Position numbers and translations under genes: made by a program
Source: Gemmatimonas sp.
GTDB taxonomy: Bacteria > Gemmatimonadota > Gemmatimonadetes > Gemmatimonadales > Gemmatimonadaceae
DNA: 64,000 nt
Assembly (NCBI RefSeq): GCF_021298855.1
Contig: NZ_JAJTHI010000007.1
Location: 62,001 to 126,000 of the forward strand
Direction of reading: 5' to 3'
Notes under the pieces: model-generated
The model's database searches: none
What the model saw: only the letters and a program-made list of their open reading frames with translations
Told to the model about the DNA's origin: nothing
In this document: positions 19,163 through 37,741 of the stretch, piece after piece
Layout of the letters: each line of letters opens with the position of its first letter
How positions within the stretch are numbered: position 1 is the stretch's first letter

Positions 19163-21427
19163 ATGACCCCCGCAACCAGCGTGGCCGCCGCCGGCGCCGC
19201 CCCACGCGTCTCCGGCGTCGCGCTCGACCGCTTCTCATATGATGACGCGATCGTCCGGAAATTCCTGTTTGCCACGCTCATTTGGGGCGTGGTCGGCATG
19301 GTGGCTGGCCTGCTGATCGCGCTGCAGCTGGCCAATCCGATTTTCAATCTCGGTCTCGAATGGACGTCGTTCGGGCGCCTGCGGCCGCTGCACACCAACG
19401 CGGTGATCTTCGCCTTTGCCGGGAACGCGTTCTTCATGGGGTGCTACTACAGCACCCAGCGTCTGCTCAAGGCGCGCATGTTCTCCGATGGTCTGAGCAA
19501 CTTCCACTTCTGGGGGTGGCAGGCGATCATCGTCTCCGCCGCCCTCACGCTGCCCTTCGGCTTCACGCAGGCCAAGGAGTACGCGGAGCTCGAGTGGCCC
19601 ATCGACATCGCGATTGCGGTGGTGTGGGTGGCCTTTGCGGTGAATTTTTTCGGCACGCTGGTCAAGCGCCGTGAGCGCCACCTCTACGTGGCGCTCTGGT
19701 TCTACATCGCGTCCATCGTCACGGTCGCCATTCTGCACATCTTCAACAACCTGTCCGTCCCGGCCGGGTTCCTGAAGAGCTACAGCATCTATGCCGGCGT
19801 GCAGGACGCCTTCATGCAGTGGTGGTACGGCCACAACGCCGTCGCGTTCTTCCTCACGACGCCGTTCCTCGGGCTCATGTACTACTTCATGCCCAAGGCC
19901 GCAGAAGGGCCGGTGTTCAGCTACAAGCTGTCCATCCTGCACTTCTGGTCGCTGGTGTTCATGTACATCTGGGCCGGCCCGCACCACCTGCACTACACGG
20001 CGCTTCCCGAGTGGGCGAGCACGGTGGGCATGCTCTTCTCGGTGATGCTCTGGGCGCCCAGCTGGGGCGGCATGATCAATGGCCTCCTCACGCTGCGCGG
20101 CGCGTGGCACAAGGTGGCGCAGGACCCCATCCTCAAGTTCTTCGTGGTGGGTGTGACCGCCTACGGCATGTCCACCTTCGAGGGGCCGATGCTCTCCATC
20201 AAGAGCGTCAACGCCCTCGCGCACTACACCGACTGGATCATCGCGCACGTGCACACGGGTGCGCTGGGCTGGAACGGCTTCATGACCTTCGGCATCGTGT
20301 ACTGGCTGCTGCCGCGCGTCTTCCAGACGCCGGTCTTCAGCAAGAAGGCCATGGAGCTGCACTTCTGGATCGCGTCGGTGGGAATCGTGCTGTACGTGGT
20401 GGCGATCTACAGCGCCGGCGTCACGCAGGGGCTCATGTGGCGCGCGTTCGACGAAACGGGACGCCTGGCGTACCCCGACTTCGTCGAGACCGTGCTCAAG
20501 CTGATGCCCATGTACTGGATGCGTGTGGCGGGCGGCACGTTGTACATCGTCGGCATGGTGATCTTCGGCTGGAACATCTTCAAGACGTGGGCGAACCGTC
20601 CGGCCACGTACGAGGTGCCGGTCATCGAAGCGGCGCCCCTGGCGAAGCGATATGTGGAGGATCACCCGGTGGTACCCGCGAACGGCCTGTGGGCGCGCTT
20701 CAACCAGGTGCAGTGGCACCGCGCGTGGGAACGCGCACCGATGCTCTTCACCGTGCTCACCACGCTGGCCGTCATCGTGGCCTCCCTCTTCGAGATCCTC
20801 CCCACGTTCCTCATCAAGTCGAACGTGCCCACGATCGCGAGCGTCAAGCCGTACACGCCGCTCGAACTCGCCGGCCGGGATCTCTACATCGCCGAGGGAT
20901 GCTTCAACTGCCACTCGCAGATGGTGCGGCCGTTCCGCTACGAGACGGAGCGCTTCGGCGACTACAGCAAGCCGGGCGAGTCGGTCTACGAGCACCCGTT
21001 CCTCTGGGGTTCGCGCCGCATCGGTCCCGACCTGGCGCGTCAGGGCGGCAAGTACCCCGACCTGTGGCATGTGCGGCACTTCGAGAATCCGCGGGCCGTC
21101 ACGGCCAAGTCGATCATGCCGGCGTACGCCCACTTCCTCAGCAAGTCGCTCGACTTCGACGGCATCCAGAGCCGCGTGGACGCGATGGCCATGGTGGGCG
21201 TGCCGTACGGTGATGCCGTGAACAAGGCCCCCGGCATGGCGCGCGAGCAGGCGAAGCAGATCGCCGCCGCCATCCGGGAGCAGGGCGGGCCCGAGGGGCT
21301 CGAGGACAAGCAGATCGTGGCCATGGTGGCCTACATGCAGCGGCTCGGCCGTGACATCAAGGTGACCGCCACGGCGAGCGCCGCGCCCACCCAGGCACCC
21401 GCGCGCGTGAACGGAGGGACCAACTGA
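19163..21427 (+). CDS. ccoNO: Cytochrome cbb3 oxidase, fused subunits I and II (CcoN-CcoO)
   Basis: The 754-residue protein joins the two core subunits of the cbb3 terminal oxidase. The first 500 or so residues are the 12-helix CcoN subunit with its haem and CuB histidines (LRPLHTNAVIFAFAGNAFF, YGHNAVAFFL, HHLHYTALPEW, HVHTGALGWNG). After a linker comes the CcoO c-type cytochrome with one haem site C580-F-N-C-H584 and a candidate axial Met in KSIMPAYAHFL. It reduces oxygen to water at low oxygen tension and pumps protons. An AGAGGGA ribosome site precedes the ATG. The stop overlaps the ccoQ start. Usually N and O are separate genes; fusions are known in some lineages. Confidence 0.96.
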   Translation: MTPATSVAAAGAAPRVSGVALDRFSYDDAIVRKFLFATLIWGVVGMVAGLLIALQLANPIFNLGLEWTSFGRLRPLHTNAVIFAFAGNAFFMGCYYSTQRLLKARMFSDGLSNFHFWGWQAIIVSAALTLPFGFTQAKEYAELEWPIDIAIAVVWVAFAVNFFGTLVKRRERHLYVALWFYIASIVTVAILHIFNNLSVPAGFLKSYSIYAGVQDAFMQWWYGHNAVAFFLTTPFLGLMYYFMPKAAEGPVFSYKLSILHFWSLVFMYIWAGPHHLHYTALPEWASTVGMLFSVMLWAPSWGGMINGLLTLRGAWHKVAQDPILKFFVVGVTAYGMSTFEGPMLSIKSVNALAHYTDWIIAHVHTGALGWNGFMTFGIVYWLLPRVFQTPVFSKKAMELHFWIASVGIVLYVVAIYSAGVTQGLMWRAFDETGRLAYPDFVETVLKLMPMYWMRVAGGTLYIVGMVIFGWNIFKTWANRPATYEVPVIEAAPLAKRYVEDHPVVPANGLWARFNQVQWHRAWERAPMLFTVLTTLAVIVASLFEILPTFLIKSNVPTIASVKPYTPLELAGRDLYIAEGCFNCHSQMVRPFRYETERFGDYSKPGESVYEHPFLWGSRRIGPDLARQGGKYPDLWHVRHFENPRAVTAKSIMPAYAHFLSKSLDFDGIQSRVDAMAMVGVPYGDAVNKAPGMAREQAKQIAAAIREQGGPEGLEDKQIVAMVAYMQRLGRDIKVTATASAAPTQAPARVNGGTN

Positions 21428-21621
21428 TGAAGCTCTCCGACATCATGTCCCACGCGCAGCTCTCCTTCTACACCGAAGTCGCGCTGGTCCTCTTCCTCGG
21501 CGTCTTCATCGCCGTCACCATCCGCACCTTCATGCCGTCGCGCAACCGGGAGATGGAGGTCGCCTCCCGGTTGCCGCTCGAAGACGATGTGGTGCTCACT
21601 CCCCGCACCGCGGAGCACTGA
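21427..21621 (+). CDS. ccoQ: CcoQ-like small oxidase subunit
   Basis: A 64-residue protein with one N-terminal transmembrane helix (LSFYTEVALVLFLGVFIAVTI) and a charged tail, sited between ccoNO and ccoP. Size, topology and position match CcoQ/FixQ, a small subunit that stabilises cbb3 oxidase. The ATG overlaps the ccoNO stop as TGATG. Identity rests mainly on position because the family is poorly conserved. Confidence 0.85.
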   Translation: MKLSDIMSHAQLSFYTEVALVLFLGVFIAVTIRTFMPSRNREMEVASRLPLEDDVVLTPRTAEH

Positions 21622-21624
21622 CCC

Positions 21625-22200
21625 ATGGCCGGACCCACGAACGACGACATCCAGGACAAGCTCCTGAACCACACGTACGACGGCATTCAGGAGTATGACA
21701 ATCCGATGCCGCGGTGGTGGCTCCTCACGTTTGCCGCCACCATCGTCTTCTCCGTCATCTACCTGTTCAACATCGGCCCGGTGGGAAGCGGCAAGGGACG
21801 CATCGCCGACTATGAAGCCGACATGGCCGCGTATGCGAAGGCGCACCCGGCACCCACCGGTGGCGACATGAGCAGCGACCAGCTGCTGGCGCTCGTGAAG
21901 GACGAGGAGGCGATGGAGGAGGGGAAGGAGGCGTACACGGCCTACTGCGCCTCCTGTCACGCGCCCGACGGCGGCGGCCTCATTGGCCCCAATCTCGCGG
22001 ATGCGTACTGGCTGCACGGTGGCACCATTGCCGACATCTACAAGACCGTCACCATTGGCGTGCTCGAGAAGGGCATGCCGCCCTGGGGGAAGACGCTCAA
22101 GCCCGAGCAGCTCTCCGCGGTGGTGGCGTACGTGAGCACCCTGCAGGGGACGACACCGGCCAACCCCAAGGCGCCGCAGGGAACCCCGGTCACACCGTGA
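21625..22200 (+). CDS. ccoP: Cytochrome cbb3 oxidase subunit III (CcoP), single haem
   Basis: A 191-residue protein with an N-terminal FixP-type segment (NHTYDGIQEYDNPMPRWW, then one transmembrane helix) and one c-type cytochrome domain, C108-A-S-C-H112, with a likely axial Met in KGMPPWGKTL. CcoP passes electrons from cytochrome c to subunit II. Classical proteobacterial CcoP is about 300 residues with two haems; here the second domain is absent and the protein simply ends after a Pro-rich tail. It lies four bases after ccoQ. Confidence 0.93.
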   Translation: MAGPTNDDIQDKLLNHTYDGIQEYDNPMPRWWLLTFAATIVFSVIYLFNIGPVGSGKGRIADYEADMAAYAKAHPAPTGGDMSSDQLLALVKDEEAMEEGKEAYTAYCASCHAPDGGGLIGPNLADAYWLHGGTIADIYKTVTIGVLEKGMPPWGKTLKPEQLSAVVAYVSTLQGTTPANPKAPQGTPVTP

Positions 22201-22207
22201 GCCAACC

Positions 22208-23647
22208 GTGAGCACCACCGCCGCACCACCGGGGCTGGGGAGGCGCGTTCTCCCCACGCTCAACGAGGATGGGACGCGTCGCTGGATCCGCCCCAAGCCG
22301 TCGCACGGCAAGTGGTGGCGGCGGCGGCAGGTCGTCGCGTACTTCCTCATGGCGATCTTCTTCGCTGCGCCCCATCTGCGCCTCTTCGGCAAGCCGGTCT
22401 TCCTCATGGACCTGCCGCGCCGCGAGTTCACGCTCATGGGCTACACGTTCCTGCCCACGGACACGCTGCTGTTCATGTTCTCCCTGGGCAGCCTTGTCAT
22501 TGGCATCTTTCTGGTGACGGCGTTGTGGGGGCGCGCGTGGTGCGGCTGGGCCTGCCCGCAGACGGTCTACCTCGAGTATCTCTTCCGCCCCATCGGCCGC
22601 TGGTTCGATGGTGGCTACACGCAGTCTCGCGCGCTCGACAAGCAGGGAGCCTGGTTCACGCCGCGGCGGCTGGGCAAGTACATCACCTTCTTCCTGCTGG
22701 CGCTCTTCGTGTCGCACACGATGCTCGCGTTCTTCGTGGGCACGCCGCAGCTGTACGAATGGATGCTGAGTTCGCCTGCCGAGCACCCGAGCGCGTTCTT
22801 CTTCGTGGTGCTGTTCACGGGGATCGTGTGGTTCAACTTCACGTATTTCCGCGAGCAGACCTGCCTCATCGTCTGCCCGTACGGACGCTGGCAGTCGGCG
22901 CTCATCGACCGGCAGTCCAAGATCGTGGCGTACGACTATGTGCGCGGCGAACCGCGGGCACTGGGCGCGAAGCAACGCGACGCCAACGCCGGCGATTGCA
23001 TTGACTGCAAGGCCTGCGTGCAGACCTGCCCCACGGGCATCGACATCCGCAACGGCCTGCAGATGGAGTGCGTGCACTGCACGCAGTGCATCGACGCCTG
23101 CGACGAAATCATGACGAAGATCGGCAAGCCCACCGGGCTCATCCGCTATTCGTCGCAGGATGAGATTGCCGGCAAGCCAAGGCACCTGCTGCGGGTACGC
23201 ACCATCCTGTATCCGCTGGTGCTGGCCATTCTGCTGGGCGGGCTGGGCGCGACCATGTACTACAAGCAGGCCGCCGACCTGACGGTGTTGCGCGGGCTCG
23301 ACGGGCCGTTTGCCATGGAAGCCGACGGCCGCGTGTCCAACCAGATCCGCGTGAAGCTCACGAATCGCCGCAGCGCGGACATGGCCTACGGCATCGTGCT
23401 CGACCTGCAGGGCGAGCCCGACCTCACGGCCAATGACATCACCGTGGTGGCGCCGGAGAACCCGCTGCGCGTGCAGGCCGGGGAAACCCGGGCCACCAGC
23501 GTCTTCGTGCTGCTGCCCACGCGCGCCTTCACGAACGGCGAGCGGTTCATCACCATCACCGTGTCCGACGAGCGCGGCTACCGGGAGTCGGTGCGGTACC
23601 GGCTGCTGGGGCCGGCCACCGGCACCACCGGGAGTACCAGGCAATGA
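22208..23647 (+). CDS. ccoG: cbb3 oxidase accessory ferredoxin-like protein CcoG
   Basis: The 479-residue protein is a membrane-bound iron-sulfur protein of the CcoG/RdxA/FixG family. It has several transmembrane helices with WGRAWCGWACPQTVYLEYLF, then two tandem [4Fe-4S] motifs (CIDCKACVQTCP and CVHCTQCIDACD), and a C-terminal immunoglobulin-like periplasmic domain. CcoG is reported to act as a copper reductase in oxidase assembly. GTG 22208 is used, seven bases after the ccoP stop; the downstream ccoH start overlaps its stop as ATGA. Confidence 0.95.
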   Translation: MSTTAAPPGLGRRVLPTLNEDGTRRWIRPKPSHGKWWRRRQVVAYFLMAIFFAAPHLRLFGKPVFLMDLPRREFTLMGYTFLPTDTLLFMFSLGSLVIGIFLVTALWGRAWCGWACPQTVYLEYLFRPIGRWFDGGYTQSRALDKQGAWFTPRRLGKYITFFLLALFVSHTMLAFFVGTPQLYEWMLSSPAEHPSAFFFVVLFTGIVWFNFTYFREQTCLIVCPYGRWQSALIDRQSKIVAYDYVRGEPRALGAKQRDANAGDCIDCKACVQTCPTGIDIRNGLQMECVHCTQCIDACDEIMTKIGKPTGLIRYSSQDEIAGKPRHLLRVRTILYPLVLAILLGGLGATMYYKQAADLTVLRGLDGPFAMEADGRVSNQIRVKLTNRRSADMAYGIVLDLQGEPDLTANDITVVAPENPLRVQAGETRATSVFVLLPTRAFTNGERFITITVSDERGYRESVRYRLLGPATGTTGSTRQ

Positions 23648-24150
23648 AGGCAGGCATGGGGTGGCCGATTGGCGTGGCCACGATTCTCGCGTGCACCGTG
23701 GCCGCGAACGTGGTGGTCATGCGCATCGCCAGCGATGATCCGTCGTTTGCGGTTGAGCCCGACTACTACCGCAAGGCGGTCCACTTCGACTCCACCATGG
23801 CGCAGGAGCGGCAGAACCTCAGCCTTGGCTGGGGATTCGATGCCGCGATCGACTCCATCGGCACATCCGGACGGACGCGCCTGGCGGTACGGCTGCGTGA
23901 TGCGTCACAGGCGCCTCTGACCGGGGCGCGCGTGGCGGTCATGGCCCGCTTCAATGCCCGCGCCAACGATACGCTCACCGCCCTGCTCACGGAGGAAGGT
24001 CCCGGCGTTTATGCGGCCACGCTCCCCATCACGCACAGCGGGGAGTGGGAGGTGCGCGTGGATGCCACACACGGCAGCCAGCGCTTCTCCACGAGTGCGC
24101 GGGTAACGGCCGTGCACGCGCTCGCCGCCTCCGAGCCGGCACGCCGGTGA
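23644..24150 (+). CDS. ccoH: FixH/CcoH-family oxidase assembly protein
   Basis: A 168-residue protein with one N-terminal transmembrane helix (GWPIGVATILACTVAANVVVM) and a periplasmic beta-rich domain containing VEPDYYRKAVHFD, the FixH-type signature. CcoH/FixH is needed for cbb3 assembly, acting with CcoI. Translational overlap exists at both ends: ATGA with ccoG and GTGA with the following gene. The C-terminal extension after the beta domain is variable. Confidence 0.9.
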   Translation: MKAGMGWPIGVATILACTVAANVVVMRIASDDPSFAVEPDYYRKAVHFDSTMAQERQNLSLGWGFDAAIDSIGTSGRTRLAVRLRDASQAPLTGARVAVMARFNARANDTLTALLTEEGPGVYAATLPITHSGEWEVRVDATHGSQRFSTSARVTAVHALAASEPARR

Positions 24151-24878
24151 TCACCACCGCGGCGGGGGTTCTGGTGGCCAGCCTGGTGGGCAGTGTCCAC
24201 TGCGCCGGCATGTGCGGCGGCTTCGTCTGCTTCTATGCCGGATCGGCGAAGGGCAACGAACCCGCCGCGTTGCGGGCGCACGCCATGTACAACGTGGGGC
24301 GTCTGGCCTCCTACCTGCTCCTGGGCGCCATCGCCGGACTGCTTGGGGCCGGCGTCTCCCGCGCCGGAGCGCTGATGGGCGTGAGCCGCGCCGCCACTCT
24401 CGTGGCCGGGGCGCTCATGGTGGGATGGGCCATCAGCACCATGGCCGCACAGCGCGGCTTCTCCCTCGTGGCCCCGCGGGCGCCACAGGGCTGGCAGCGG
24501 GCCCTGGGACGCGTACTGCACGCGGTGCGGGAGCAGCCCATCGGCATTCGCGCCGGCCTCACGGGGCTCTTCACCACGCTGCTGCCCTGCGGGTGGCTCT
24601 ATGTGTTCGTGGCCGCCGCCGGTGGCACCGGCAGCGTACCGTCGGCCATGGCCACCATGGCGCTGTTCTGGGTGGGGACGGTGCCGGCGCTCGTGGCGGT
24701 CGGCGTGGGCGCACAGACGCTGCTGACACCGTTTCGGCGCCGCCTCCCGGCATTCAGCGCCGCCGTGGTACTGATCATGGGATTGCTCTCCATGTCGGGC
24801 CGATTGCTGCCGCGCGCGGCGGCCTCACACGAGCTGCACATGGCCACCACGCCCACGGAGCAGATCCATGGCCACTGA
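24147..24878 (+). CDS. Sulfite exporter TauE/SafE-family membrane protein in the cco operon
   Basis: The 243-residue membrane protein has about six helices and an N-terminal HCAGMCGGF motif, the mark of the TauE/SafE subgroup that occurs in cytochrome oxidase and copper loci (CcoH2/SenC-type neighbourhoods). LTGLFTTLLPCGWLYVFV, later in the chain, contains a second conserved Cys-Gly element. The cysteines suggest metal binding, probably copper, but no member of this subgroup has an agreed function. The GTG start overlaps the ccoH stop as GTGA; the 3' end overlaps ccoI by 11 bases. Confidence 0.88.
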   Translation: MITTAAGVLVASLVGSVHCAGMCGGFVCFYAGSAKGNEPAALRAHAMYNVGRLASYLLLGAIAGLLGAGVSRAGALMGVSRAATLVAGALMVGWAISTMAAQRGFSLVAPRAPQGWQRALGRVLHAVREQPIGIRAGLTGLFTTLLPCGWLYVFVAAAGGTGSVPSAMATMALFWVGTVPALVAVGVGAQTLLTPFRRRLPAFSAAVVLIMGLLSMSGRLLPRAAASHELHMATTPTEQIHGH

Positions 24879-27363
24879 CACACTGCAACTGAGCGGCACG
24901 AAACCGGGCACGGGCGAGACCATCCTGTGTGCGCACTGCGGCTTGCCCGTCCCCGAGGGACTGGTGGACGACGCGGCCGAACGGCAGTTCTGCTGCACCG
25001 GGTGCCATACGGCGTTCACCATCCTGCATGAACACGGTCTCGATTCGTACTACGGCTTTGCCGAGCGCCGCGAGGCGCCGGTGCGCGCCTCGGGGCGCAG
25101 CTACGAGGAGTTCGATCACCCGGCGTTCGCGCAGCTGTATGTCACGCGCACGCCGGAGGGGCTGTCGCGCACGGAGCTGTATCTCGAGGGCGTGCATTGC
25201 GCCTCGTGCGTCTGGCTCGTGGAGCGCATGCCGCTGTTGCAGAACGGTGTCGTTCGCGCCGAGCTCGACGTGCGCCGCTCGCTGGCGGTCGTGGAGTGGG
25301 ATGCGGAGGCCGTGGCGTTGTCGGCCGTGGCGCGGGCGCTCGACCTGTTGGGCTACCCACCGCACCCATACCGTGGCGTGGCGCGGGCCGACATGCGCCG
25401 GCGCGAGGACCGCACCATGCTGGTGCGCATCGGCATCGCGGGCGCCATCGCCATCAACGTGATGCTGCTCGCCCTCGCCCTGTACTCCGGCGAGCTGAAC
25501 GGCATGGAGGCGCGCTTCACCACCTTTTTCCGGTGGATGAGCTTTGCGGTGACGGTGCCGGCCTTCCTCTGGCCGGGGCGCGTGTTCTTTACGGGTGCCT
25601 GGGCGTCGCTGCGCACGAAGTCGCTGCACATGGATCTGCCCATTGCCATTGCCCTGGCGGCGGGGTTCGTGCGGGGCGCCATCAACACGGTGACGGGCGA
25701 GGGGCCCATCTACTTCGACGGGCTGGCGCTGCTCATCTTCGCGCTGCTGGTGGGGCGGTTCCTGCAGCAGCGTGGGCAGCGCATGGCCGCCGACGCGGCC
25801 GAACTGCTGCACGCCATTGCGCCCAGCACCGCGCGCATCGTGGACGCGGGGAGTGCGAGCGACCAGATGCGGGACATTCCCACCGCCGCGCTGCTGCCGG
25901 GCATGGTGCTCGACGTGCGCGCCGGCGAGACGTTCGCCGCCGACGGCGTCGTGGTGCGCGGGGCGTCCAGTGTGAACGCGGCGCTCCTCACGGGAGAGTC
26001 GCGCCCCACGTCGGTGGGCGAAGGGACCACCGTGTATGCCGGCACCCTCAACGTGGCGGCGCCGCTGCGGGTGCGCGTGGTCGAGGCGGGAGAGACGAGT
26101 CGCATTGCCAAGCTGCTGCGACAGGTGGAGGAAAGCGCGCGCCGCCGTGCGCCCATCGTGCAGATGGCCAATCGCCTGGCGGGGATCTTCACCGCCGTGG
26201 TGCTGGTGGCCGCGGTCGCCACCTTCGCCAGCAAGACCCAGCTCAACGCCGGCGCGGCGCTCGACGACGCCATCGCCTTGCTCATCGTGACCTGCCCCTG
26301 TGCGCTCGCACTCGCCACCCCGCTGGCCATCACGGTGGCGGTGGGACGGGCAGCCGGCAACGGCATGCTCATCAAGGGCGGCGACGCGCTCGAGTTGCTG
26401 GCCACGCCCGGCACGCTCGTGCTCGACAAGACCGGTACCATTACCGAGGGGCGCACGGCACTGGCGTCGTGGTCGGGGCCGGAGTGGGTGAAGCCCCTGG
26501 TGCTGGCGCTGGAAGAGGGCTCCTCGCATCCGCTTGCCGACGGCTTCCGCCGAGCCTGGCCCGGCCTCGCGGTGCCGGTGGTCGCGCAGTCGCGTCATGT
26601 GATGGGGGGCGGGTTGGAGGGGGTGATCGACGGGCGCCTGGTGCGCATCGGCTCGCCACGCTTCGTGGCCGAGAGCACGACACGCCTCGCGCCCGCCGTG
26701 GCGGCGGCGCTCGACACCATCGATCGCACGCTGACCCCCGTACACATCGCGGTGGACGGGGAGCTCGTGGCGTTGGCCGGCATGGGCGATCGCGTACGCG
26801 AGGACGCATTGGCGTCGTTGCAGGCGCTGCGCGCGCGGGGCTGGCGCACCGTGATGCTGAGCGGCGATGCCACCGATGTGGTGACCGCGGTGGGGCGCGC
26901 GCTGCATTTTGGCGAAGCCGATGCCATTGGTGCCGCGTCGCCGGAGGACAAGCTGGCCTTCGTGGAACGGTGCAAGCAGCAGGGCACCGTGGTGATGGTG
27001 GGCGACGGCGTGAACGATGCTGCCGCGATTGCCGCGGCCCACGTGGGTATCGGGGTGCACGGCGGCGCCGAGGCGTGCCTGGCCACCGCCGACATCTACC
27101 TCACGCGTCCGGGGCTTTCCGCGCTGGTGGAGCTCACCGAAGGCGCGCGCCGTACCATGCGCGTCATCCGGCGCAACATCGGGTTTTCCATTGCGTACAA
27201 CGTCATCGGGGCGGGGATGGCCGTGATCGGGATGCTGACGCCGCTCATTGCCGCCGTGCTCATGCCGGCCAGCTCGATTACCGTCGTCCTGGGCAGCTGG
27301 TACGGCCACACCTTCGCCCGCCGCCCGCGCGGTGCGGCGACCACCACGGAGTTGACGGCATGA
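24868..27363 (+). CDS. ccoI: Copper-exporting P1B-type ATPase CcoI (FixI)
   Basis: The 831-residue protein delivers copper to the oxidase. In order: a Cys-rich N-terminal domain (CAHCGLPVP, CCTGCH) typical of CcoI, a heavy-metal-associated domain with C111-A-S-C114, six or more transmembrane helices, LLTGES, the metal-binding C476-P-C478 helix, the phosphorylation motif with D520 in DKTGTITEG, and GDGVNDAAA near 712-720. All catalytic residues are intact. The reading frame starts inside the previous gene, and its stop overlaps ccoS as ATGA. Confidence 0.96.
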   Translation: MATDTLQLSGTKPGTGETILCAHCGLPVPEGLVDDAAERQFCCTGCHTAFTILHEHGLDSYYGFAERREAPVRASGRSYEEFDHPAFAQLYVTRTPEGLSRTELYLEGVHCASCVWLVERMPLLQNGVVRAELDVRRSLAVVEWDAEAVALSAVARALDLLGYPPHPYRGVARADMRRREDRTMLVRIGIAGAIAINVMLLALALYSGELNGMEARFTTFFRWMSFAVTVPAFLWPGRVFFTGAWASLRTKSLHMDLPIAIALAAGFVRGAINTVTGEGPIYFDGLALLIFALLVGRFLQQRGQRMAADAAELLHAIAPSTARIVDAGSASDQMRDIPTAALLPGMVLDVRAGETFAADGVVVRGASSVNAALLTGESRPTSVGEGTTVYAGTLNVAAPLRVRVVEAGETSRIAKLLRQVEESARRRAPIVQMANRLAGIFTAVVLVAAVATFASKTQLNAGAALDDAIALLIVTCPCALALATPLAITVAVGRAAGNGMLIKGGDALELLATPGTLVLDKTGTITEGRTALASWSGPEWVKPLVLALEEGSSHPLADGFRRAWPGLAVPVVAQSRHVMGGGLEGVIDGRLVRIGSPRFVAESTTRLAPAVAAALDTIDRTLTPVHIAVDGELVALAGMGDRVREDALASLQALRARGWRTVMLSGDATDVVTAVGRALHFGEADAIGAASPEDKLAFVERCKQQGTVVMVGDGVNDAAAIAAAHVGIGVHGGAEACLATADIYLTRPGLSALVELTEGARRTMRVIRRNIGFSIAYNVIGAGMAVIGMLTPLIAAVLMPASSITVVLGSWYGHTFARRPRGAATTTELTA

Positions 27364-27503
27364 GCGTGATCTTCATCGTGCTTCCCCTGGCCATCCTCAT
27401 CGTGGGAGCGGCGGTGGGTGCGTTCGTCTGGAGCGCCCGCACGGGCCAGATGGATGATCTGGAAACCCCGGCCGTGCGGATGCTGCGGGACGAGGGGCGG
27501 TAG
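27360..27503 (+). CDS. ccoS: CcoS (FixS), cbb3 maturation protein
   Basis: A 47-residue protein with one helix (VIFIVLPLAILIVGAAVGAFVW) followed by SARTGQMDDLETPAVRML, the well-conserved FixS tail. CcoS is required for insertion of the redox cofactors into CcoN. It is too short for many gene finders but its start overlaps the ccoI stop, and it closes the operon. Confidence 0.92.
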   Translation: MSVIFIVLPLAILIVGAAVGAFVWSARTGQMDDLETPAVRMLRDEGR

Positions 27504-27959: not shown

Positions 27960-29111
27960 ATGAGGCTCGCGTCCCTGCGTTCAGGGTGGCTGGTGGCCTT
28001 GGCACTGCTGCTGCCGGCCTGCCGCTCGCTGAGCCGCGCCACGCCCCATGTGTCGGGGCTCGCGGATACGGTGTTCTACGTGTCGGCGCGTGCCCGCATC
28101 GAGGGGCGGGACACGCGGGCGCGTGCAGCATCACTCGAGTATGGCCTGGCCGTCATGCAGCGCCACCAGGGCACCCCCGATGACCGGGGATTGGGGCGGG
28201 ACATCATGGATAGCGTCCTGCTCGATTCCGTACGGTTCGTGCAGCTCCTTCGTGCGCGGGTGCAGAGGCAACGCGCGCCGCTCGACCTGGCGGTGCTGTA
28301 TGTGCACGGCATGGGCACCTCGTTGCACGAGGCGTGGCAGTATGCGGCCGCGGCGTCGGTGCAGAGCGGTACGCCGGTGCCGTGGATCGTCTTCTGCTGG
28401 CCCGCCAGCGGGTCGGGCGCGAGCCGACCGCAGCCCCAGGCGTTCTTCACCGCCGGGTATCACCGCGACGCGGCCATGGCGGACAGCGCCCGGGCGGCGT
28501 TTGCGCAGACCCTGCAGGTCGTGCGGGCGGCCGTACCGAACGCGCAACTCGTGCTCGCGTCGCACTCTCTGGGGGGCCAGCTGGTGGGGCGGGCGCTGCA
28601 CCATGACACCACCCTGCGCGCCGATCTCGAACGGGCGCCGCTGCGCGCCCTTGCATTTGCGATCCCCGACGTGAACGCCCAGGCGTTCAACGACACGCTG
28701 GCCCCGGCGCTGCGCTACACGGCCACCCGGCGCGTCGTGTACGTGACGCGCAACGATCGCGCGATGATGGTCGCGCGCCGCATCAACGGAACGCCGCGTG
28801 CCGGCCTGCGGTCAGCAGGCAACTGGCGCGCTGCCGATTCGGCGCTCGTGGAGACCGTGGACGTCACGAACGCGGCCACCACGGAGGGGTGGTTTCAATC
28901 GCACTTCGGCAGCCATCACGCCATCAAGCGCAAGACGGGGTTGCTCGTGGACCTCGTCGCGATCGTCGGTGGTCAGCGCGACGCCACGTGTCGATCGCGC
29001 GTGGGGTTCGGCGAGCCGGACGCGGACGGGATATGGCGACTGCAGCACGTGGTGCCGACGACCAGCGACCTGCTCGCCTGCCCAGCGATGCATCATGGAG
29101 CGGCACGATGA
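27960..29111 (+). CDS. Lipoprotein alpha/beta-hydrolase (DUF900-like lipase/esterase)
   Basis: The 383-residue product begins with a lipoprotein signal ending LLLPAC (Cys21). After a helical segment comes AVLYVHGMGTSLHEAWQYA, an oxyanion-hole type strand-turn, the nucleophile elbow S201-H-S203-L-G-G, a candidate Asp in VVYVTRNDRAM and a late His in GSHHAI. This order fits the DUF900/alpha-beta hydrolase group of probable lipases or esterases. It should sit on the envelope. The stop overlaps the start of the phospholipase D-like gene as ATGA, so the two proteins are made together. Substrate is unknown; a lipid or ester is likely. Confidence 0.8.
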   Translation: MRLASLRSGWLVALALLLPACRSLSRATPHVSGLADTVFYVSARARIEGRDTRARAASLEYGLAVMQRHQGTPDDRGLGRDIMDSVLLDSVRFVQLLRARVQRQRAPLDLAVLYVHGMGTSLHEAWQYAAAASVQSGTPVPWIVFCWPASGSGASRPQPQAFFTAGYHRDAAMADSARAAFAQTLQVVRAAVPNAQLVLASHSLGGQLVGRALHHDTTLRADLERAPLRALAFAIPDVNAQAFNDTLAPALRYTATRRVVYVTRNDRAMMVARRINGTPRAGLRSAGNWRAADSALVETVDVTNAATTEGWFQSHFGSHHAIKRKTGLLVDLVAIVGGQRDATCRSRVGFGEPDADGIWRLQHVVPTTSDLLACPAMHHGAAR

Positions 29112-32100
29112 GGCGCGGCCTGCGGATCACCCTCGTGGCCGCCTGCCTCGCCGTCCCGGCGGCCGCGACGGGACAGCCACCGGCACGCCTGCCGGCCGAC
29201 GGCGGCACCACCTTCTCGCTGGGGCAGCCCGGGGTATGGTTGCCAACCGGTGGGCTCTCCACCGGCCTCGAACGCCGCGATGGCGAGGCGGTGGCCGTTA
29301 CCGAACTGCGCGGTGGCATGTATGTCGAACTGCTCAGCCGCGTGCTGGGTCTTGGCGGCCTTCATGCCGAGGGGTACGGTGGGCTGCTCGACACCCGCTT
29401 CAATGGCGGCGTACGCCTGCGCGCCGTCTCGCCGTTCCTGCGACTCGGCATCGGCGTGGACTACAGTGGCATGGACAAGCAGGTGCGACCGCTCGTGTCG
29501 TTCACGCATCCGGTGCGCCGTGGCGGCGTTCGGCACGACGGGAGCATGATGCGTATCGACTATCGCGGCGGCCCCGAACGCATGGTCACCGTTGGCGTCG
29601 AAGTGCCGTTCCTGCGGAAGATTCCCCTCGGCACCACGCGGCCGCACGAAGATCGCGTGGTGCTGCGCGATCGTGCGAGCCCCGATGCGCCGCTGCCCGT
29701 GGGACGTGGCGCGGTGGCGGCGCTGGACAGCGCGCGCCATGCGGCGCACCGCATCCAGGCGCTCATCGTGCCCTGGGCCGACCATACCGGCGGCGGCGGC
29801 CGCGCCAGCGACTCCGCCGTGGTGCAGCGGCTGCGGAGCATCGGCGCACTCGCGCGGGCGACCACCGTGGAGCACGAAGTCCGCCGGTGGCACGCGGCGC
29901 TCGATGTGGCCTTCTCCGCGGCGCTGCACGACGGGACCGGCGACGCAGCGCACGTCACCCCCGAGGGGCGGCGGGCCGCCGTGGCGGCGCGCGCCGTCCT
30001 GCTGGACGAAGTGATTGTGCCCTACGACCGCCTGCTCGGTCAGGCAAAGGATCACGACACCACCCGGGACTTCGCGCTGCTGGCCCGCGGCGCGTTTCTG
30101 CGCTGGCTCCACGTGCAGGGCGGCTTGTCGCGCCAGGCCATTCCCGATGCCCTGGGCGTGTTCGGTGCGGTGCTCGACATCGTGGAGGAGGTGCGGCGCA
30201 CCGCGCACGCGCAGTGGAACGGCTCCCGTTTCGTGTGGCTTCCGCTGCAGCTCGCGCTGGAGCCGGAGCAACACGACACCCAGCAGGAGCTCGACGCGCT
30301 GGTGGCGCACATGGCGGGCGAACCGGTGACCGACGGGAACGACATCTCGTACGTGATCAATGAGCAGTTCCAGTACCAGCTGAGCCGCACGGTGCATGCG
30401 GCCCGTGAGTACCACGTGCTCTGGACGCACGACTTTCGGGGCAAGGACGGGCGCGGCGATCCCGACGAGATGAGCTTCCGCCACGTCCTGCGCTCCTACC
30501 TTGCGGCCATGACGGCGCGCGTGCGCGAGTACGACAGCACGGGGGTCTTTCCCACGTACCTGATCATTCTCGACGAGTGGTTCTATCGGGCCAACACGGC
30601 GCGCCTCTGGATGGACCTGCTGGAGAATCCCCTGCACCACCGCGTGCGGCTCAAGGCGGGGTTCGGCGCCTGGGAAGATTCGCTCGCCGCGGCGCAGCAG
30701 GCGCTGCGCGACGCCGTGGCGCACTCGTCGCTGCTCACGGCCCAGCGCCGGCACTATGGCGAGGGGTGGCTGCGGTCGCTCGTGAAGGTCCACGTGAACA
30801 TCACCAATGTCTCCGACCCCTCATTCACGAGCTGGCGGGTGGCGACGGCGTTTCCGGTACCGGATACCTGGATGCGCGACCACCGCAAACTGGTGGTGTA
30901 CGACGTGTCGGAGCGCGACCCGTACCGCGGCGAATCGATCGTGACCGGGGCCGGCATCGGCGAGCACTACGCGAATCTCTCCTGGGAGGATCGCTCGTTG
31001 CTCGTGCGCGGACCGGCCAACCTGTCGCTCAAGACGGCGGCCCGCGAGCTGCTCCTGAGTCAGGGGGTGTCCCCCGCCCGCATCCCCGCGGTGCTGCGCC
31101 CGCTGCCGCTGGCGCCGGACTACGCCGCGCTCGTGGAACGGAATCGCGGCCTGCCGGGGCGCGACCTGCGGGCGTTGCTCCTGCAGAACCGCACCGGGTA
31201 CGCGGACAAGAGCCTCAACGTCACGAAGGCCCTGCTGTATACGCTCATGCCTGCGGGCTCCGTCATCAAGATTCCCGATTCGCTCTGGAACGGGACCTTC
31301 TGGGGCAGTGCCCTGCTGGGGGCGTCCTTGCGCGGGGTGCGCGTGCTGGTGATTGCGCCCACGCTGGCCAACGCGCCGGCGCGTGCCTTCGGGTCGATGA
31401 TTCGCAGCCGGGAGCTGCTCTGGCGCTTCGTCATGGCCGAGCAGCTGTTCGGGGATGTCATTCGCCGCGAGGGCGGCCTGCTCAAGGTGGGGTTGTACGC
31501 GTCGGAGATTCCCGTGAGCAACGTGCCGGGCAAGATCCTGTCCGTGCGCACCACGCTGGCTCGCGAGCCGTGGCTGCGCGACCTGTTTGCCTTTCCGCCC
31601 AGTGTGTACGAGGGGCTGGAGGAGCTCGCCGCCACCCTGGGGGCGCTGCCGATTCCGGTGCGCGACGGCAACGAGTTCGAGGCACGGGAACGGCCGCTGC
31701 TGCATCTCAAGGCCAACTTCATTGCCAGCCGCGAAGCCTGGTCGGTGATGGCGCGCCGCGATTGGGTGGAGCTGACCCGCGAGTTCGTGCCACGCCGCAT
31801 GTCGCAGCTGCAGGCCCGTGGCGCCGCCGTCGCCTCGTTCGGCGACACCACGGGGGCCCGCATTGACGTGGGCGGCGACGTCGTGCGCAGTTGGTATGAG
31901 GGACTCCCCGCCGCGCAACGCGACCGGGTGGTGTTCTATACCCTGATCGGGTCAGCCAATCAGAACGATCGCAGCATGGTCAGCGACGGCGAGGCGTCGC
32001 TGCTCATGGCCGGCTGGCCGTCGGTGACCGCCACGATCGATCTCATCTCGCTCATCGGCCAGTCCCGCTGGATCGATGATCCCGCGGTGCTCGACCAATT

Positions 32101-32161
32101 GCTGCCCCGCCGCGGCGCCCTCGCGACGCGCATCGCCCACTGGTTCAAGTTCGCGTTCTGA
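29108..32161 (+). CDS. Large secreted phospholipase D-like protein
   Basis: The 1017-residue product has a signal peptide (MRRGLRITLVAACLAVPAAA). Residues 25-150 are a beta-rich stretch with alternating aromatic strands, resembling a piece of an outer-membrane barrel. A long helical region follows. The C-terminal half is PLD-like: H592-R-K594-LVVY-D599 is an intact HxKx4D motif, followed by GPANL; a second H866-L-K868 lacks the aspartate (Ala873), but GSANQNDRS (948-956) is present as in PLD enzymes. PLDs cleave or transfer phosphodiester bonds of phospholipids using paired HKD motifs. The ATGA overlap with the hydrolase gene indicates a joint function. It is far longer than typical bacterial PLDs. 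Confidence 0.78.
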   Translation: MRRGLRITLVAACLAVPAAATGQPPARLPADGGTTFSLGQPGVWLPTGGLSTGLERRDGEAVAVTELRGGMYVELLSRVLGLGGLHAEGYGGLLDTRFNGGVRLRAVSPFLRLGIGVDYSGMDKQVRPLVSFTHPVRRGGVRHDGSMMRIDYRGGPERMVTVGVEVPFLRKIPLGTTRPHEDRVVLRDRASPDAPLPVGRGAVAALDSARHAAHRIQALIVPWADHTGGGGRASDSAVVQRLRSIGALARATTVEHEVRRWHAALDVAFSAALHDGTGDAAHVTPEGRRAAVAARAVLLDEVIVPYDRLLGQAKDHDTTRDFALLARGAFLRWLHVQGGLSRQAIPDALGVFGAVLDIVEEVRRTAHAQWNGSRFVWLPLQLALEPEQHDTQQELDALVAHMAGEPVTDGNDISYVINEQFQYQLSRTVHAAREYHVLWTHDFRGKDGRGDPDEMSFRHVLRSYLAAMTARVREYDSTGVFPTYLIILDEWFYRANTARLWMDLLENPLHHRVRLKAGFGAWEDSLAAAQQALRDAVAHSSLLTAQRRHYGEGWLRSLVKVHVNITNVSDPSFTSWRVATAFPVPDTWMRDHRKLVVYDVSERDPYRGESIVTGAGIGEHYANLSWEDRSLLVRGPANLSLKTAARELLLSQGVSPARIPAVLRPLPLAPDYAALVERNRGLPGRDLRALLLQNRTGYADKSLNVTKALLYTLMPAGSVIKIPDSLWNGTFWGSALLGASLRGVRVLVIAPTLANAPARAFGSMIRSRELLWRFVMAEQLFGDVIRREGGLLKVGLYASEIPVSNVPGKILSVRTTLAREPWLRDLFAFPPSVYEGLEELAATLGALPIPVRDGNEFEARERPLLHLKANFIASREAWSVMARRDWVELTREFVPRRMSQLQARGAAVASFGDTTGARIDVGGDVVRSWYEGLPAAQRDRVVFYTLIGSANQNDRSMVSDGEASLLMAGWPSVTATIDLISLIGQSRWIDDPAVLDQLLPRRGALATRIAHWFKFAF

Positions 32162-33674: not shown

Positions 33675-34244
33675 TCAGGCGGGGCCGAGCACCTCGGTGA
33701 AGAACGGCTCGAGGTCGATGACGAAGGCCGACGCCGCGCCGGCCGGTTGCCACTCGAGCCGATCGGCGTGGATGCTCGGGCGTTCGTCGTGCGGGAGCCA
33801 GCGTTCCACCAGTCGTGAGTCGAGATCGACGATCCAGTACTCGATGCCGGCCTGCTGGTAGCGCCCACGTTTGACCACGCGGTCGAAGCGGGCCGTGCTG
33901 GGCGACAGGATCTCCACGAACAGCAGCGCCTCGGTGCGCTCCTCATTCGTGCGCGGGCGGCGGCCGTCGGTGAGCGGCACCACGTACAGGTCCGGCTGGA
34001 CCAGCGTGCGCGGGTCGAGGACCCACTCCGATGGCGCCACGAACGCCGTCCCGATGCCCGCCGGGCGAGCGAGCGACTCGAGGAGGACGGTCAGTGCCGT
34101 CACGGCGCCCTGATGGGCCAGGCGTGGCGTGGGGCTCACGAGCAGCTCCCCGTCCACGCACTCGTAACGGTGCGACGGATCGTCCGGCAGCGCCTGCACC
34201 TCGGCGGCGGTCCAGACACGGGGTGTGAGCGCGGGCATGGCCAT
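33675..34244 (-). CDS. Uma2-family putative endonuclease (DUF820)
   Basis: A 189-residue protein with the Uma2/DUF820 layout: HRYECVDGELLVSPTP near the start, QPDLYVV with the first acidic residue, LLFVEILSPSTARFD, and YWIVDLDSRLVE. These follow the PD-(D/E)xK nuclease fold of the family. Uma2 genes are common in cyanobacteria, deinococci and Gemmatimonadota, often in many copies, and no cellular role is established. ATG 34244 was used; an extension to 34319 is not protein-like. Not next to any defence gene. Confidence 0.85.
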   Translation of the reverse strand: MAMPALTPRVWTAAEVQALPDDPSHRYECVDGELLVSPTPRLAHQGAVTALTVLLESLARPAGIGTAFVAPSEWVLDPRTLVQPDLYVVPLTDGRRPRTNEERTEALLFVEILSPSTARFDRVVKRGRYQQAGIEYWIVDLDSRLVERWLPHDERPSIHADRLEWQPAGAASAFVIDLEPFFTEVLGPA

Positions 34245-34382
34245 AGTGTGCCGAGCGATAGAGGGAGGAGGCAAGGGGTCACGACACATCATGACATGTC
34301 TCGAGCGCACACGTGTCACCGTTTCGCTGCGGATGGTACCTTCCCGATGCGCTCCGCCGTGCGCCGTTGATGCGTCGGTGCC

Positions 34383-36257
34383 TTACCGGCGACCGGTGCC
34401 GGTCGTGTCGGTGAGGGCCCGCAGGAACGTCACGAGGTCGCGCTGCTCACCCGCCGTGAGGTTGAGCGGGTCGGGGGGCAGCGTCTGATTCTCGAGGGCG
34501 ATGCCGATGCCCGCCCCGCCACCACGGTTGTAGAAGTCGATGACCGACTCGAGTGTGGGATAGGCGCCGTTGTGCATGTAGGGCGCCGTGAGCGCCACGT
34601 TGCGCAGCGACGGCGTGCGAAAGGCGTACTTGTGCGGCTCGGCGCGGGAGAGGCGATAGCGGCCCACATCGGGATCCACCGAGCCGCGCGCCGTGACCGC
34701 ACGCACGGGAGTGCCAAGCACCTCGACCTCCGACTTCTGGTACATGGGCGGCACGGTGCCGGTGGTGAGCGGCAGGAAGTGACAGGTGGCGCACTTGCCC
34801 TTGCCCACGAAGAGGTTGAAGCCACGACGGGCCTCGAGGGTCAGCGCGGCGACCTCGCCACGGAGCGCGCGATCCACGGGTGAGTCGAGACGGGTGAGGC
34901 TGCGCTGATACGCCGCGAGCGCTGAGCGGAGGCGCGCGGCGGTCACGTCGGCGTCGCGACCGACGGGGGGGCTGCCGGTACCGGCGAACGCGGTACGGAA
35001 CCGAGCGGCGAGCGCGGGATCGCGCGCCAGCAACGCCGCCGTGGCGTCGAGACTGCCGTGCATTTCGTCCACGTTCTCCACGACATCGGTGACCTGGTCT
35101 TCGAGGTAGGTCGTGCGGAGGTCGGAGAACACGCCCAGCTGCAGTCCGCTGTTGATCACGGTGGGTGTGTTGCGGGCAAGCGGTGCCCCGCCACGCGCCG
35201 TGTTCACGCGCCGGCCGTCGGTGAACGCCTGCTCAGGCACATGGCATGAGCTGCAGGCGCGCCGCCCATCACCGGAGAGGCGCACATCGTGAAACAGCTG
35301 ACGGCCAAGCGCCACCGTCTCGCCGTTCGCGGGTGTGGTATTGAGCGGAGCGAACGCGAGCACGTCGAAGGCGGCCGAGTCGAATACCGACGCCGCGTCC
35401 ATGCGGAAGGCCCGACGTTCGGCGGGCGTGCCGATCCCGAGCGAAACCCGCGTGTCGCGCAGGGCGCGGGCCAGTGGGTTGCCGTGCGTGACGATGAAGG
35501 CGAAATGATCGAACGCCTCGCGCGTGGTGCCGGCCTGCAGCGTGGTGCGCGCCGCGGCCATGACGCTGTCCAGCGTGGCCCACGCCGGCGTATCGGCCCG
35601 ATACGGCGCCAGCGAACGCGCGACGCCCTCCAACGCCGCGTCGGCTTCGCGTAACGCGTGGCCCGCGACGGGCGAATCGAACCCCGCAAGCCCCAGCGTG
35701 CCGATGCGCGCCAGCTCGAGCTTGGCGGCATCCCAGATCCGATCATCGGTGGCGCGCTGGGCCTGCATCATGGTGCGGGCGCGGGTCACGAGCTGCCGCA
35801 ACGTGGCTGTTTCCTGCCGCACCGCATCCTGTTCACCAAGCGGATCGTCGCCGTACAACGACTCCTCGATCACCTGGAACCCGGTCGGCGGGAACACCGC
35901 CTCCGGCCCTTCCGATTCCTCCACTTCCGGCAACGCCGGCCCGTTCATGCTCCTGGAGGTGGAGGGGACATAGTACTCGAGCCCCACCTCGACATGTTTG
36001 TATGCCCGGCGCGCGGCCACGAAGGCCGCGCGGGCACGCGCCACGGACTCCGGCGTGGACAGCGTGGCGGCCGTATCAAGCTGCGCGACCCGGTCGGCCA
36101 GCGTGTCCACGTGGGCACGCCAGATGTCCAACGTGTGGGCCGCACGCACATCACCTCCGCCAGCGGGCGCGGAGGCGATGGGGGCGTCGGTTGAGGGCGT
36201 GCGTTCGCACGCGCTCAACACGACGAGGACACTCACGGAAATGGCACGAACCCACAT
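34383..36257 (-). CDS. Dihaem cytochrome c peroxidase-like lipoprotein with N-terminal helical domain
   Basis: The 624-residue product has a lipoprotein signal (VVLSAC, Cys17). Residues 30-300 are a helical domain recalling imelysin/EfeO-type periplasmic proteins (RAAFVAARRAYKHVEVGLEY); the resemblance is modest. The C-terminal part is a dihaem cytochrome c peroxidase/MauG domain with C335-S-S-C-H339 and C489-A-T-C-H493, plus HNGAYPTLESVIDFYN. Such proteins reduce peroxide or oxidise partner proteins. It follows the PhoX-like gene by 17 bases, so the two form an operon. Fused CCP proteins of this layout are familiar in Bacteroidota. Confidence 0.85.
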   Translation of the reverse strand: MWVRAISVSVLVVLSACERTPSTDAPIASAPAGGGDVRAAHTLDIWRAHVDTLADRVAQLDTAATLSTPESVARARAAFVAARRAYKHVEVGLEYYVPSTSRSMNGPALPEVEESEGPEAVFPPTGFQVIEESLYGDDPLGEQDAVRQETATLRQLVTRARTMMQAQRATDDRIWDAAKLELARIGTLGLAGFDSPVAGHALREADAALEGVARSLAPYRADTPAWATLDSVMAAARTTLQAGTTREAFDHFAFIVTHGNPLARALRDTRVSLGIGTPAERRAFRMDAASVFDSAAFDVLAFAPLNTTPANGETVALGRQLFHDVRLSGDGRRACSSCHVPEQAFTDGRRVNTARGGAPLARNTPTVINSGLQLGVFSDLRTTYLEDQVTDVVENVDEMHGSLDATAALLARDPALAARFRTAFAGTGSPPVGRDADVTAARLRSALAAYQRSLTRLDSPVDRALRGEVAALTLEARRGFNLFVGKGKCATCHFLPLTTGTVPPMYQKSEVEVLGTPVRAVTARGSVDPDVGRYRLSRAEPHKYAFRTPSLRNVALTAPYMHNGAYPTLESVIDFYNRGGGAGIGIALENQTLPPDPLNLTAGEQRDLVTFLRALTDTTGTGRR

Positions 36258-36274
36258 GGTGCGTGTCCGGGGCG

Positions 36275-37741
36275 TCAGCGGGGGAGTCCCTTCACCACGA
36301 CCATCATGCTGGCCTGATTCTCGGTGGGGCGCAGCGTCCCCCCGTCCACGCCACGATACTTGTCGGCCCGCCACGAGTGTGGCTGCAGCGCGATGATGAA
36401 GGTGTCGTTCTGGCCAAGCATGGGCGACACGTCGATCATGGCGCCATACTCCCAGCCGGCCTTGCCGGCCGGACGCGCACCCACGGCGTTGTACAGCGCG
36501 GCATCGGGCTGCGTGCGGCGGTGATCCATCTCCAGCACCGGACGCATTTCGCGCGTGGCGATGTTGTACTGGTAGATGTAGGCGTCGTGGGTCTCGTCGC
36601 CGTACCCGTTGTCATCTTCCTGGATGTAGAGGAAGTTCTGCCCCACGTACACGTTGTCGGGGTTCTGGAACAGGCGGGCGGGGCCCGTGCGGTCATCCCC
36701 ATCGGCAATCACTTCCAGCGTGCCGCGCAGCGGATCGGCCTCGCTGAGGCGCAAACGGTAGGCACGGCCATACTTGGTGCGCCCGTAGTCGGCGTTCACA
36801 CCGGTGTTGTTCTGCCCGGTGGCCACGAAATACAGCTCGCGGTTGTTCGCGGCCGACCCCTTGCGGTAGTCCACGTCTTCCACGCGCGCAAAGCGGATGG
36901 CGTTGAGCGTGGCGCCTTCCTGGTTGATCTGGCGGCCGGTCAGGGTGCGTTGGTTGCGCACCTGGCGGAACTCCACCGGATACGACTGCCCCACTACCAT
37001 GTCGCGCTCGCGCGTGTTGTTGTCGCTCCGCGCCAGCACGTACAGGTTGCCGTTGTCGAGATCGCCGACCGTATTGGACAGGTACATGGCCACCTGGCCG
37101 CCTTCCACGCCCGAGTCGTCATCGCCGATCACGATGACCGTGCGGTTGGGGTACGCCACCTTCGGCAGCGGCACCGCGTTTTCGGTGTTGAAGCGCCCGA
37201 AGCCGGCCAGGTACTTGGGCGTGTTGGCCGGGCCCTGCGGATCCACGGCCAGAATCTCCGACTCCTCATTGCTCTCGCCGGCCGTGATGAAGGCACTGAA
37301 CCCGTGCTCTTCCACCGTCGCGAGCGTCGCCGAGCACAGGCGGTACCGGCCGGCGGTGGAGTTCACCACGTAGTCGCCCGACAGCGGTTTGAGCTCACGA
37401 TCGAAGCGGACACGCGAGACCGCGAAGTTGTCCTCGTGGTTGGTGAGCAGGGTGAACGATCCGTCGGCGTTGCGGATGAAACCGGCGCCGTCGGCCGACC
37501 CGCCGAAGACGAAGTTGGGGGAACCCGGCAGTCGGTCATCGCTGCTGACGAGGCCATAGATCTCGACGCCGGACACGAGCGACCGGAGGAGTGGCGGGGT
37601 GACCGACTGATTCCGGAGGGCAACCGGGGCCACCGTCTCGTTGGGAGTGGCGATCCCGTCGCCGTCGTCGCCGCACGCAGCGAGCGCAAGGCCGCAGGCG
37701 GCGGTGAGCAAGACACGGGAGGGGGCGGAACGCGTTGGCAT
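36275..37741 (-). CDS. PhoX-like (DUF839) lipoprotein phosphatase
   Basis: The 488-residue product carries a lipoprotein signal (LALAAC, Cys23). The rest is a beta-propeller-like chain with LLTNHEDNF, GESNEESEILAVDP, GDDDSGVEGGQVAMYL and a late IQEDDNGYGDETHDAY, which fit the DUF839/PhoX family. PhoX enzymes are calcium- and iron-dependent phosphatases active in phosphate starvation. Family members are usually Tat-exported, whereas this one appears to be a Sec lipoprotein. Some DUF839 proteins have no phosphatase activity, so the name is a family-level call. First gene of a two-gene unit with the dihaem peroxidase. Confidence 0.75.
   Translation of the reverse strand: MPTRSAPSRVLLTAACGLALAACGDDGDGIATPNETVAPVALRNQSVTPPLLRSLVSGVEIYGLVSSDDRLPGSPNFVFGGSADGAGFIRNADGSFTLLTNHEDNFAVSRVRFDRELKPLSGDYVVNSTAGRYRLCSATLATVEEHGFSAFITAGESNEESEILAVDPQGPANTPKYLAGFGRFNTENAVPLPKVAYPNRTVIVIGDDDSGVEGGQVAMYLSNTVGDLDNGNLYVLARSDNNTRERDMVVGQSYPVEFRQVRNQRTLTGRQINQEGATLNAIRFARVEDVDYRKGSAANNRELYFVATGQNNTGVNADYGRTKYGRAYRLRLSEADPLRGTLEVIADGDDRTGPARLFQNPDNVYVGQNFLYIQEDDNGYGDETHDAYIYQYNIATREMRPVLEMDHRRTQPDAALYNAVGARPAGKAGWEYGAMIDVSPMLGQNDTFIIALQPHSWRADKYRGVDGGTLRPTENQASMMVVVKGLPR

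Follow-up and report, generated by a model that had tools for sequence, protein, structure and literature searches.

A possible class of outer-membrane phospholipid enzymes with a predicted barrel and phospholipase D domain, paired with a lipoprotein lipase in a Gemmatimonas-like clade

What do two overlapping genes for exported proteins do in the envelope of Gemmatimonas sp., a soil-type bacterium? The genes lie at positions 27960-32161 of the stretch analysed here (the window, 64,000 nucleotides, positions 62001-126000 of contig NZ_JAJTHI010000007.1 in a genome of 4.09 Mb), and encode a lipase-like lipoprotein and a 1017-residue protein resembling phospholipase D (PLD). A preliminary description of this DNA had proposed a two-part lipid-processing system outside the cytoplasm, an interpretation that the present analysis supports in part. 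We give a little less than an even chance to the reading that the PLD-like protein and the lipase act together on phospholipids of the outer membrane, remodelling or removing them. The pair is organised as follows:

27960-29111, + strand: lipoprotein alpha/beta hydrolase (lipase-like) of the DUF900 family, 383 residues (PF05990, E 5.2e-19)
29108-32161, + strand: predicted outer-membrane barrel-anchored PLD-superfamily protein, 1017 residues (sequence, alignment, AlphaFold)
29108-29111, + strand: ATGA stop/start overlap, pointing to translational coupling (sequence; recurs in homologous pairs)

The lipase open reading frame (ORF) runs from ATG at 27960 to TGA at 29109-29111 and the PLD-like gene from ATG at 29108 to TGA at 32159-32161, which gives the ATGA overlap noted in the preliminary description. 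In both ORFs, GC varies over the codon positions as it does in real genes. The export signals on both proteins, noted there as matching, are likewise found: the lipase carries a lipobox (..LLLPAC), while the PLD-like protein begins with the export signal MRRGLRITLVAACLAVPAAATGQ and has no lipobox.

The AlphaFold model of the PLD-like protein, built on a 24-row alignment, has a predicted local distance difference test score (pLDDT) of 87 and a predicted template modelling score (pTM) of 0.89. It falls into three parts, which include both the N-terminal barrel-like stretch and the helical middle that had been proposed from the sequence:

29237-29611, + strand: 8-stranded OmpA-type transmembrane beta-barrel, residues 44-168 (AlphaFold, structural matches, strand alternation)
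29705-30316, + strand: helical domain leading from the barrel to the PLD domain, residues 200-403 (AlphaFold)
30323-32158, + strand: two-lobe phospholipase D domain, about residues 406-1017 (Foldseek, structural alignment)

In the model, eight amphipathic strands close as a barrel. Folded alone with 55 homologues, the N-terminal part has a pLDDT of 86.8 and a pTM of 0.73, and its structural alignment Z scores are 14.5 to NspA, 14.4 to the OprF N-domain, 13.7 to both OmpA and OmpW, 10.6 to PagP and 14.9 to a designed 8-stranded transmembrane barrel. For comparison, designed soluble barrels reach up to 12.3 and unrelated natural proteins at most 9.7. The strands alternate between outward hydrophobic and inward polar residues (0.65, against 0.30 +- 0.07 in shuffled strands, with 0 of 5000 shuffles reaching the value), whereas the strands of the PLD domain show no such alternation (0.31), and inward-facing barrel positions hold the charged residues E88, R103, D118 and D151. 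On this model the protein is very probably integral to the outer membrane rather than freely secreted, as it had first been described.

As established for OmpA, a barrel with an even number of strands has its C-terminus in the periplasm when a signal peptide precedes it. The PLD-like protein has such a number, and its N-terminus would enter from the periplasm, which places the helical and PLD domains on the periplasmic face; by this OmpA rule the enzyme domain is most likely periplasmic. The longer and more conserved barrel turns, at residues 75-83 and 135-146 (R138, G140 and G145 are invariant in the second), would lie on the same presumed periplasmic side as the enzyme domain. No fold was identified for the helical domain (200-403), since hits to the barrel and PLD domains took up the lists of structural matches.

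The PLD fold named in the preliminary description, whose absence from a structure prediction would have told against that description, is present in the predicted structure, with its two lobes. Foldseek matches the domain to 3hsi (2.6e-7), and residues ~387-1017 align with E. coli phosphatidylserine synthase 8yr5 with a Z of 20.4 over 365 residues at 2.9 Å. Further matches include vaccinia F13, PLD3/4, Streptomyces PLDs, Nuc and PPK1 (Foldseek, VIA-align). The catalytic motifs are divided between two HKD (His-Lys-Asp) half-sites:

30881-30904, + strand: HKD half-site 1, H592xK594xxxxD599 (invariant in 56 rows)
31703-31711, + strand: HKD half-site 2, H866xK868, with the usual Asp absent (A873); His and Lys invariant in 56 rows
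31949-31993, + strand: GSxN...R955...D960xE962 segment completing half-site 2 (alignment)

The motif alignment holds 56 full or nearly full rows, 55 of them distinct, from several phyla. Every one of the 56 has H592, K594, D599, H866 and K868, which speaks against a chance occurrence of the two halves; half 1 has its complete HKD triplet, and half 2 has the His and Lys in every row without the Asp. Rows long enough to cover the region also conserve R955 and, at 948-951, GSxN, which a few have as GTxN; throughout the family an insertion of ~75 residues separates GSxN from the HxK of half 2.

The PLD-like protein matches no family in Pfam or NCBIfam; sequence searches against Pfam, NCBIfam, PHROGs, PADLOC and PDB returned nothing useful, and neither did its profile against PDB sequences. 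A match to Lin0512_fam (E 0.035) was taken as chance. PLDc_2 is matched by 4 of 24 family members (best E 0.0029), and the window protein is not among them. Judged on its alignments, the protein is nevertheless a member of a real conserved family, though outside the curated ones, as it aligns over its full length with homologues at 33-93% identity. The family is present in 23 of 199 related genomes, and one contig scan gave 61 loci from Gemmatimonadota, Krumholzibacteriota, Latescibacterota, Zixibacteria, Calditrichota and two Acidobacteria. The roughly 60 homologues come mostly from the first three of these phyla, and their phylum labels need care because the source genomes are nearly all metagenome-assembled. 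One homologue (L026 and L029, G192:C152) is split near residue 560-580 into two overlapping ORFs, by a frameshift or an assembly error.

The upstream protein matches PF05990 (DUF900) at 69.1 bits, above the profile cut-off of 20.5, and has matches in 28 of 199 relatives (E<=0.001). Its main sites are these:

27960-28022, + strand: signal peptide and lipobox ..LLLPAC21 (sequence; Cys kept in homologues)
28566-28568, + strand: candidate nucleophile Ser203 (HSLGG), invariant in an alignment of 14 homologues
28755-28757, + strand: candidate triad Asp266, invariant in the same alignment
28917-28919, + strand: candidate triad His320, invariant in the same alignment

The invariance of Ser203, Asp266 and His320 indicates an intact catalytic triad. 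A His-Gly pair at 116-117, of the kind usually found at the oxyanion site, is invariant as well. The Cys at the lipobox position (Cys21, codon 28020-28022) recurs in each of the 10 closest homologues aligned (as LSAC, IAGC, LGAC and similar), and more distant ones have lost it. The residue after Cys21 is Arg, which under the enterobacterial rule makes the outer membrane a plausible destination, but lipoprotein sorting rules vary between bacterial groups (PMC12846801). The protein is a member of the DUF900 alpha/beta hydrolases, here, in contrast, in a lipoprotein form coupled to a PLD gene.

The pair was also looked for in other genomes. The gene directly preceding the PLD gene is the lipase in the window and six further genomes (G015, G012, G021, G028, G052 and G081), i.e., in 7 of ~60 homologues, with lipase identities down to about 40%. 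With the starts as chosen, four loci show the ATGA overlap (the window, G015, G021 and G028). G012 and G052 could have it too, as each offers an in-frame start at the lipase stop, and in G081 a gap of ~150 bases separates the genes. The outer flanking genes mostly differ among the seven loci. Elsewhere the lipase is on another contig than the PLD gene (G080), or two genes away on the opposite strand (L108). All of these loci belong to one supported, Gemmatimonas-like clade of the PLD tree, together with a few members that lack an adjacent lipase. With so few homologues preceded by the lipase, the PLD family evidently does not need it, and lipase relatives without a PLD gene exist as well. The proposed two-part system thus stands as a coupled pair within one clade and does not extend to the family at large. 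One genome with the pair (G012) has a second PLD copy without a DUF900 lipase, followed by a 356-residue alpha/beta-hydrolase-like protein (LLVHGIGN, L068:11171-12238).

Other lineages of the family have other neighbours. In a second clade, a ~185-residue exported protein directly follows the PLD gene at eight loci (L055, L084, L085, L088, L092, L094, L101 and L117), with a four-base stop/start overlap in 6 of the 8. No Pfam family scores above cut-off for these proteins, one of which bears a weak resemblance to outer-membrane barrels. Omp85-superfamily genes of different types stand beside the PLD gene in some genomes of Zixibacteria, Krumholzibacteriota and Latescibacterota (L080:5868-7181, L082:11034-12320, L105:5687-7876 and L081:11096-12172). 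Among 118 genes adjacent to the PLD gene 7 are of the Omp85 kind, compared with 4 among 538 other genes (Fisher p 9e-4), an enrichment that is suggestive only, being post hoc and without correction for common descent. L071, L087 and L098, which account for three of the seven, represent a single gene family picked up solely through a home-made profile; two of them were scanned and had no Pfam match. As barrel-type and Omp85 proteins belong to the outer membrane, these neighbours agree with the predicted barrel of the PLD-like protein. Additionally, small exported proteins of ~140 residues, all of one family (cluster c58), are encoded just 5' of the PLD gene in one genome of Zixibacteria (L080:2222-2650) and one of Latescibacterota (L114:7507-7920).

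How might such a pair work? Once exported, the PLD-like protein would insert into the outer membrane through its 8-stranded OmpA-like barrel, from which the helical and PLD domains would hang on the periplasmic face. Held by the barrel, the enzyme would be within reach of the inner-leaflet phospholipids of the outer membrane. The two HKD halves would come together in a single active site and there attack a membrane phospholipid at its phosphodiester via a phosphatidyl-histidine intermediate, as established for the PLD superfamily. Water would then take up the phosphatidyl group, forming phosphatidic acid, or some other alcohol would receive it. Within the Gemmatimonas-like clade, the co-made lipoprotein hydrolase would remove acyl chains from the same lipid or from the product, a sequential action that we infer from the coupling alone. 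As far as the sequences tell, the most likely function of the PLD-like protein is hydrolysis or transfer of phospholipid head groups, and that of the lipase acyl hydrolysis.

Several observations weigh against this reading. The Asn of GGxN in half 1 is replaced by Gly, and the Asp of the second HKD is lost, both throughout the family; PLD activity could therefore be altered. PLD folds also serve nucleases and polyphosphate kinase (PLD3/4, Nuc and PPK1 are among the matches), the DUF900 hydrolase may have a non-lipid substrate, and the lipase is absent beside most PLD homologues.

The nearest precedents are ClsO in function and PlpD in layout, and neither has the barrel-helical-PLD architecture. 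ClsO is an outer-membrane lipoprotein cardiolipin synthase of Acinetobacter and other Proteobacteria, which acts on outer-membrane phospholipids (PMC12846801). Like the PLD-like protein, it belongs to the PLD superfamily, has two HKD halves and sits at the outer membrane (a placement predicted for the protein studied here). However, ClsO is a surface-exposed lipoprotein, whereas the PLD-like protein has no lipoprotein signal, has a barrel and a helical domain before a PLD domain predicted to be periplasmic, and the two occur in different phyla. PlpD has a periplasmic phospholipase domain under its barrel, and its loss raises the levels of many phospholipids (PMC11116518). This PL-Omp85 protein shares with the predicted structure an outer-membrane barrel with a periplasmic phospholipase domain, but combines a patatin domain, POTRA and a 16-stranded Omp85 barrel, while in the PLD-like protein the OmpA-type 8-stranded barrel comes first and the PLD domain last. 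Membership of the type Vd PL-Omp85 proteins was rejected given the 8 strands, no POTRA match, and PLD instead of patatin. In fold, the PLD domain comes closest to phosphatidylserine synthase PssA (8yr5, 3hsi), with a Z of about 20, but PssA has 16% identity, no barrel and an intracellular action. OmpA has the same order of an N-terminal 8-stranded barrel and a periplasmic domain; its C-terminal domain binds peptidoglycan, where the PLD-like protein carries an enzyme fold. No report of a barrel-PLD fusion was found in the literature searched, whose coverage is partial, with most subscription journals outside it.

The ClsO precedent makes cardiolipin synthesis the alternative closest to our own reading: the protein would be a barrel-anchored outer-membrane transphosphatidylase that joins phosphatidylglycerol with phosphatidylglycerol or phosphatidylethanolamine, and the lipase would trim or recycle the product. 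The preliminary description had excluded a cardiolipin synthase, and this exclusion was too strict, as the genome's own cardiolipin-synthase-type proteins include one that aligns with half 1 (RDHRK...GIGEHY...WEDR...RGPA) at 37% over 51 columns (E 3.5e-5; E 0.096 to a second such paralogue) and ClsO provides an instance of this chemistry at the outer membrane (PMC12846801). Still, we consider cardiolipin synthesis unlikely, as the genome already has two proteins of this type, the PLD domain matches phosphatidylserine synthase and PLDs equally well, and the GGxN Asn is missing in half 1. The likeness of half 1, set against the two synthase-type proteins already present, leads us to favour hydrolysis or transfer, with cardiolipin synthesis as its leading special case. 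That the pair instead scavenges nutrients, degrading external or dead-cell phospholipids for phosphate, head groups and fatty acids, would suit two exported, co-translated proteins with hydrolase-type folds and the environmental hosts given in record titles. This seems improbable to us, since the barrel topology places the enzyme in the periplasm and scanning the neighbours of the pair revealed no phosphate-uptake genes.

PLD3, PLD4 and Nuc among the structural matches could also point to a periplasmic nuclease or other phosphodiesterase with the lipase as an incidental neighbour, but two HKD halves per chain, an outer-membrane anchor and the coupling to a hydrolase suit a lipid substrate better, and we regard this as quite improbable. 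Some phospholipase D effectors are paired with genes for immunity proteins, and a toxin-immunity pair or secretion-system lipase effector would fit that pattern. We give this almost no weight and rejected such membership, in line with the preliminary description: both proteins are equipped for export, the gene next to the PLD gene encodes an intact hydrolase rather than an immunity protein, the PLD family persists where this hydrolase is missing, and none of the ten ORFs scanned around the pair is a secretion-system part.

If the preferred reading of phospholipid processing at the outer membrane holds, its scope could be wider than one locus. We tentatively propose, with somewhat more doubt than for the pair itself, that an undescribed class of outer-membrane enzymes (OmpA-type barrel, helical domain, PLD domain) makes or breaks phospholipids in Gemmatimonadota and related phyla, one clade having a co-translated lipoprotein lipase act in sequence with it. 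Before ClsO became known, the inner membrane was regarded as the only site of primary phospholipid synthesis (PMC12846801). If a further PLD family of the outer membrane, built along other lines and held by a barrel, were to join it, lipid remodelling there would look widespread. On the predicted structure, the outer membrane may itself be where an enzyme family not described before, spread over several little-studied phyla with scarcely studied envelopes, remodels phospholipids. The lipase-PLD pair is open to direct testing in relatives of cultured Gemmatimonas.

Within the window, the pair looks like a separate unit, as it is flanked 5' by a cbb3 oxidase cluster with a copper-type ATPase and 3' by an M20 peptidase on the opposite strand. 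Promoter and terminator scans gave chance-level results, uninformative on co-transcription. The M20 peptidase is adjoined by a Uma2-type endonuclease (33678-34319, - strand) and a di-haem peroxidase/MauG-type protein (34386-36374, - strand). The cbb3 oxidase cluster (19163-27503) has a single 754-residue ORF with both COX1 (CcoN) and FixO (CcoO) domains, followed by FixP, FixG and FixH proteins and the copper-type ATPase, and it is closed by a short CcoS-like ORF at 27360-27503.

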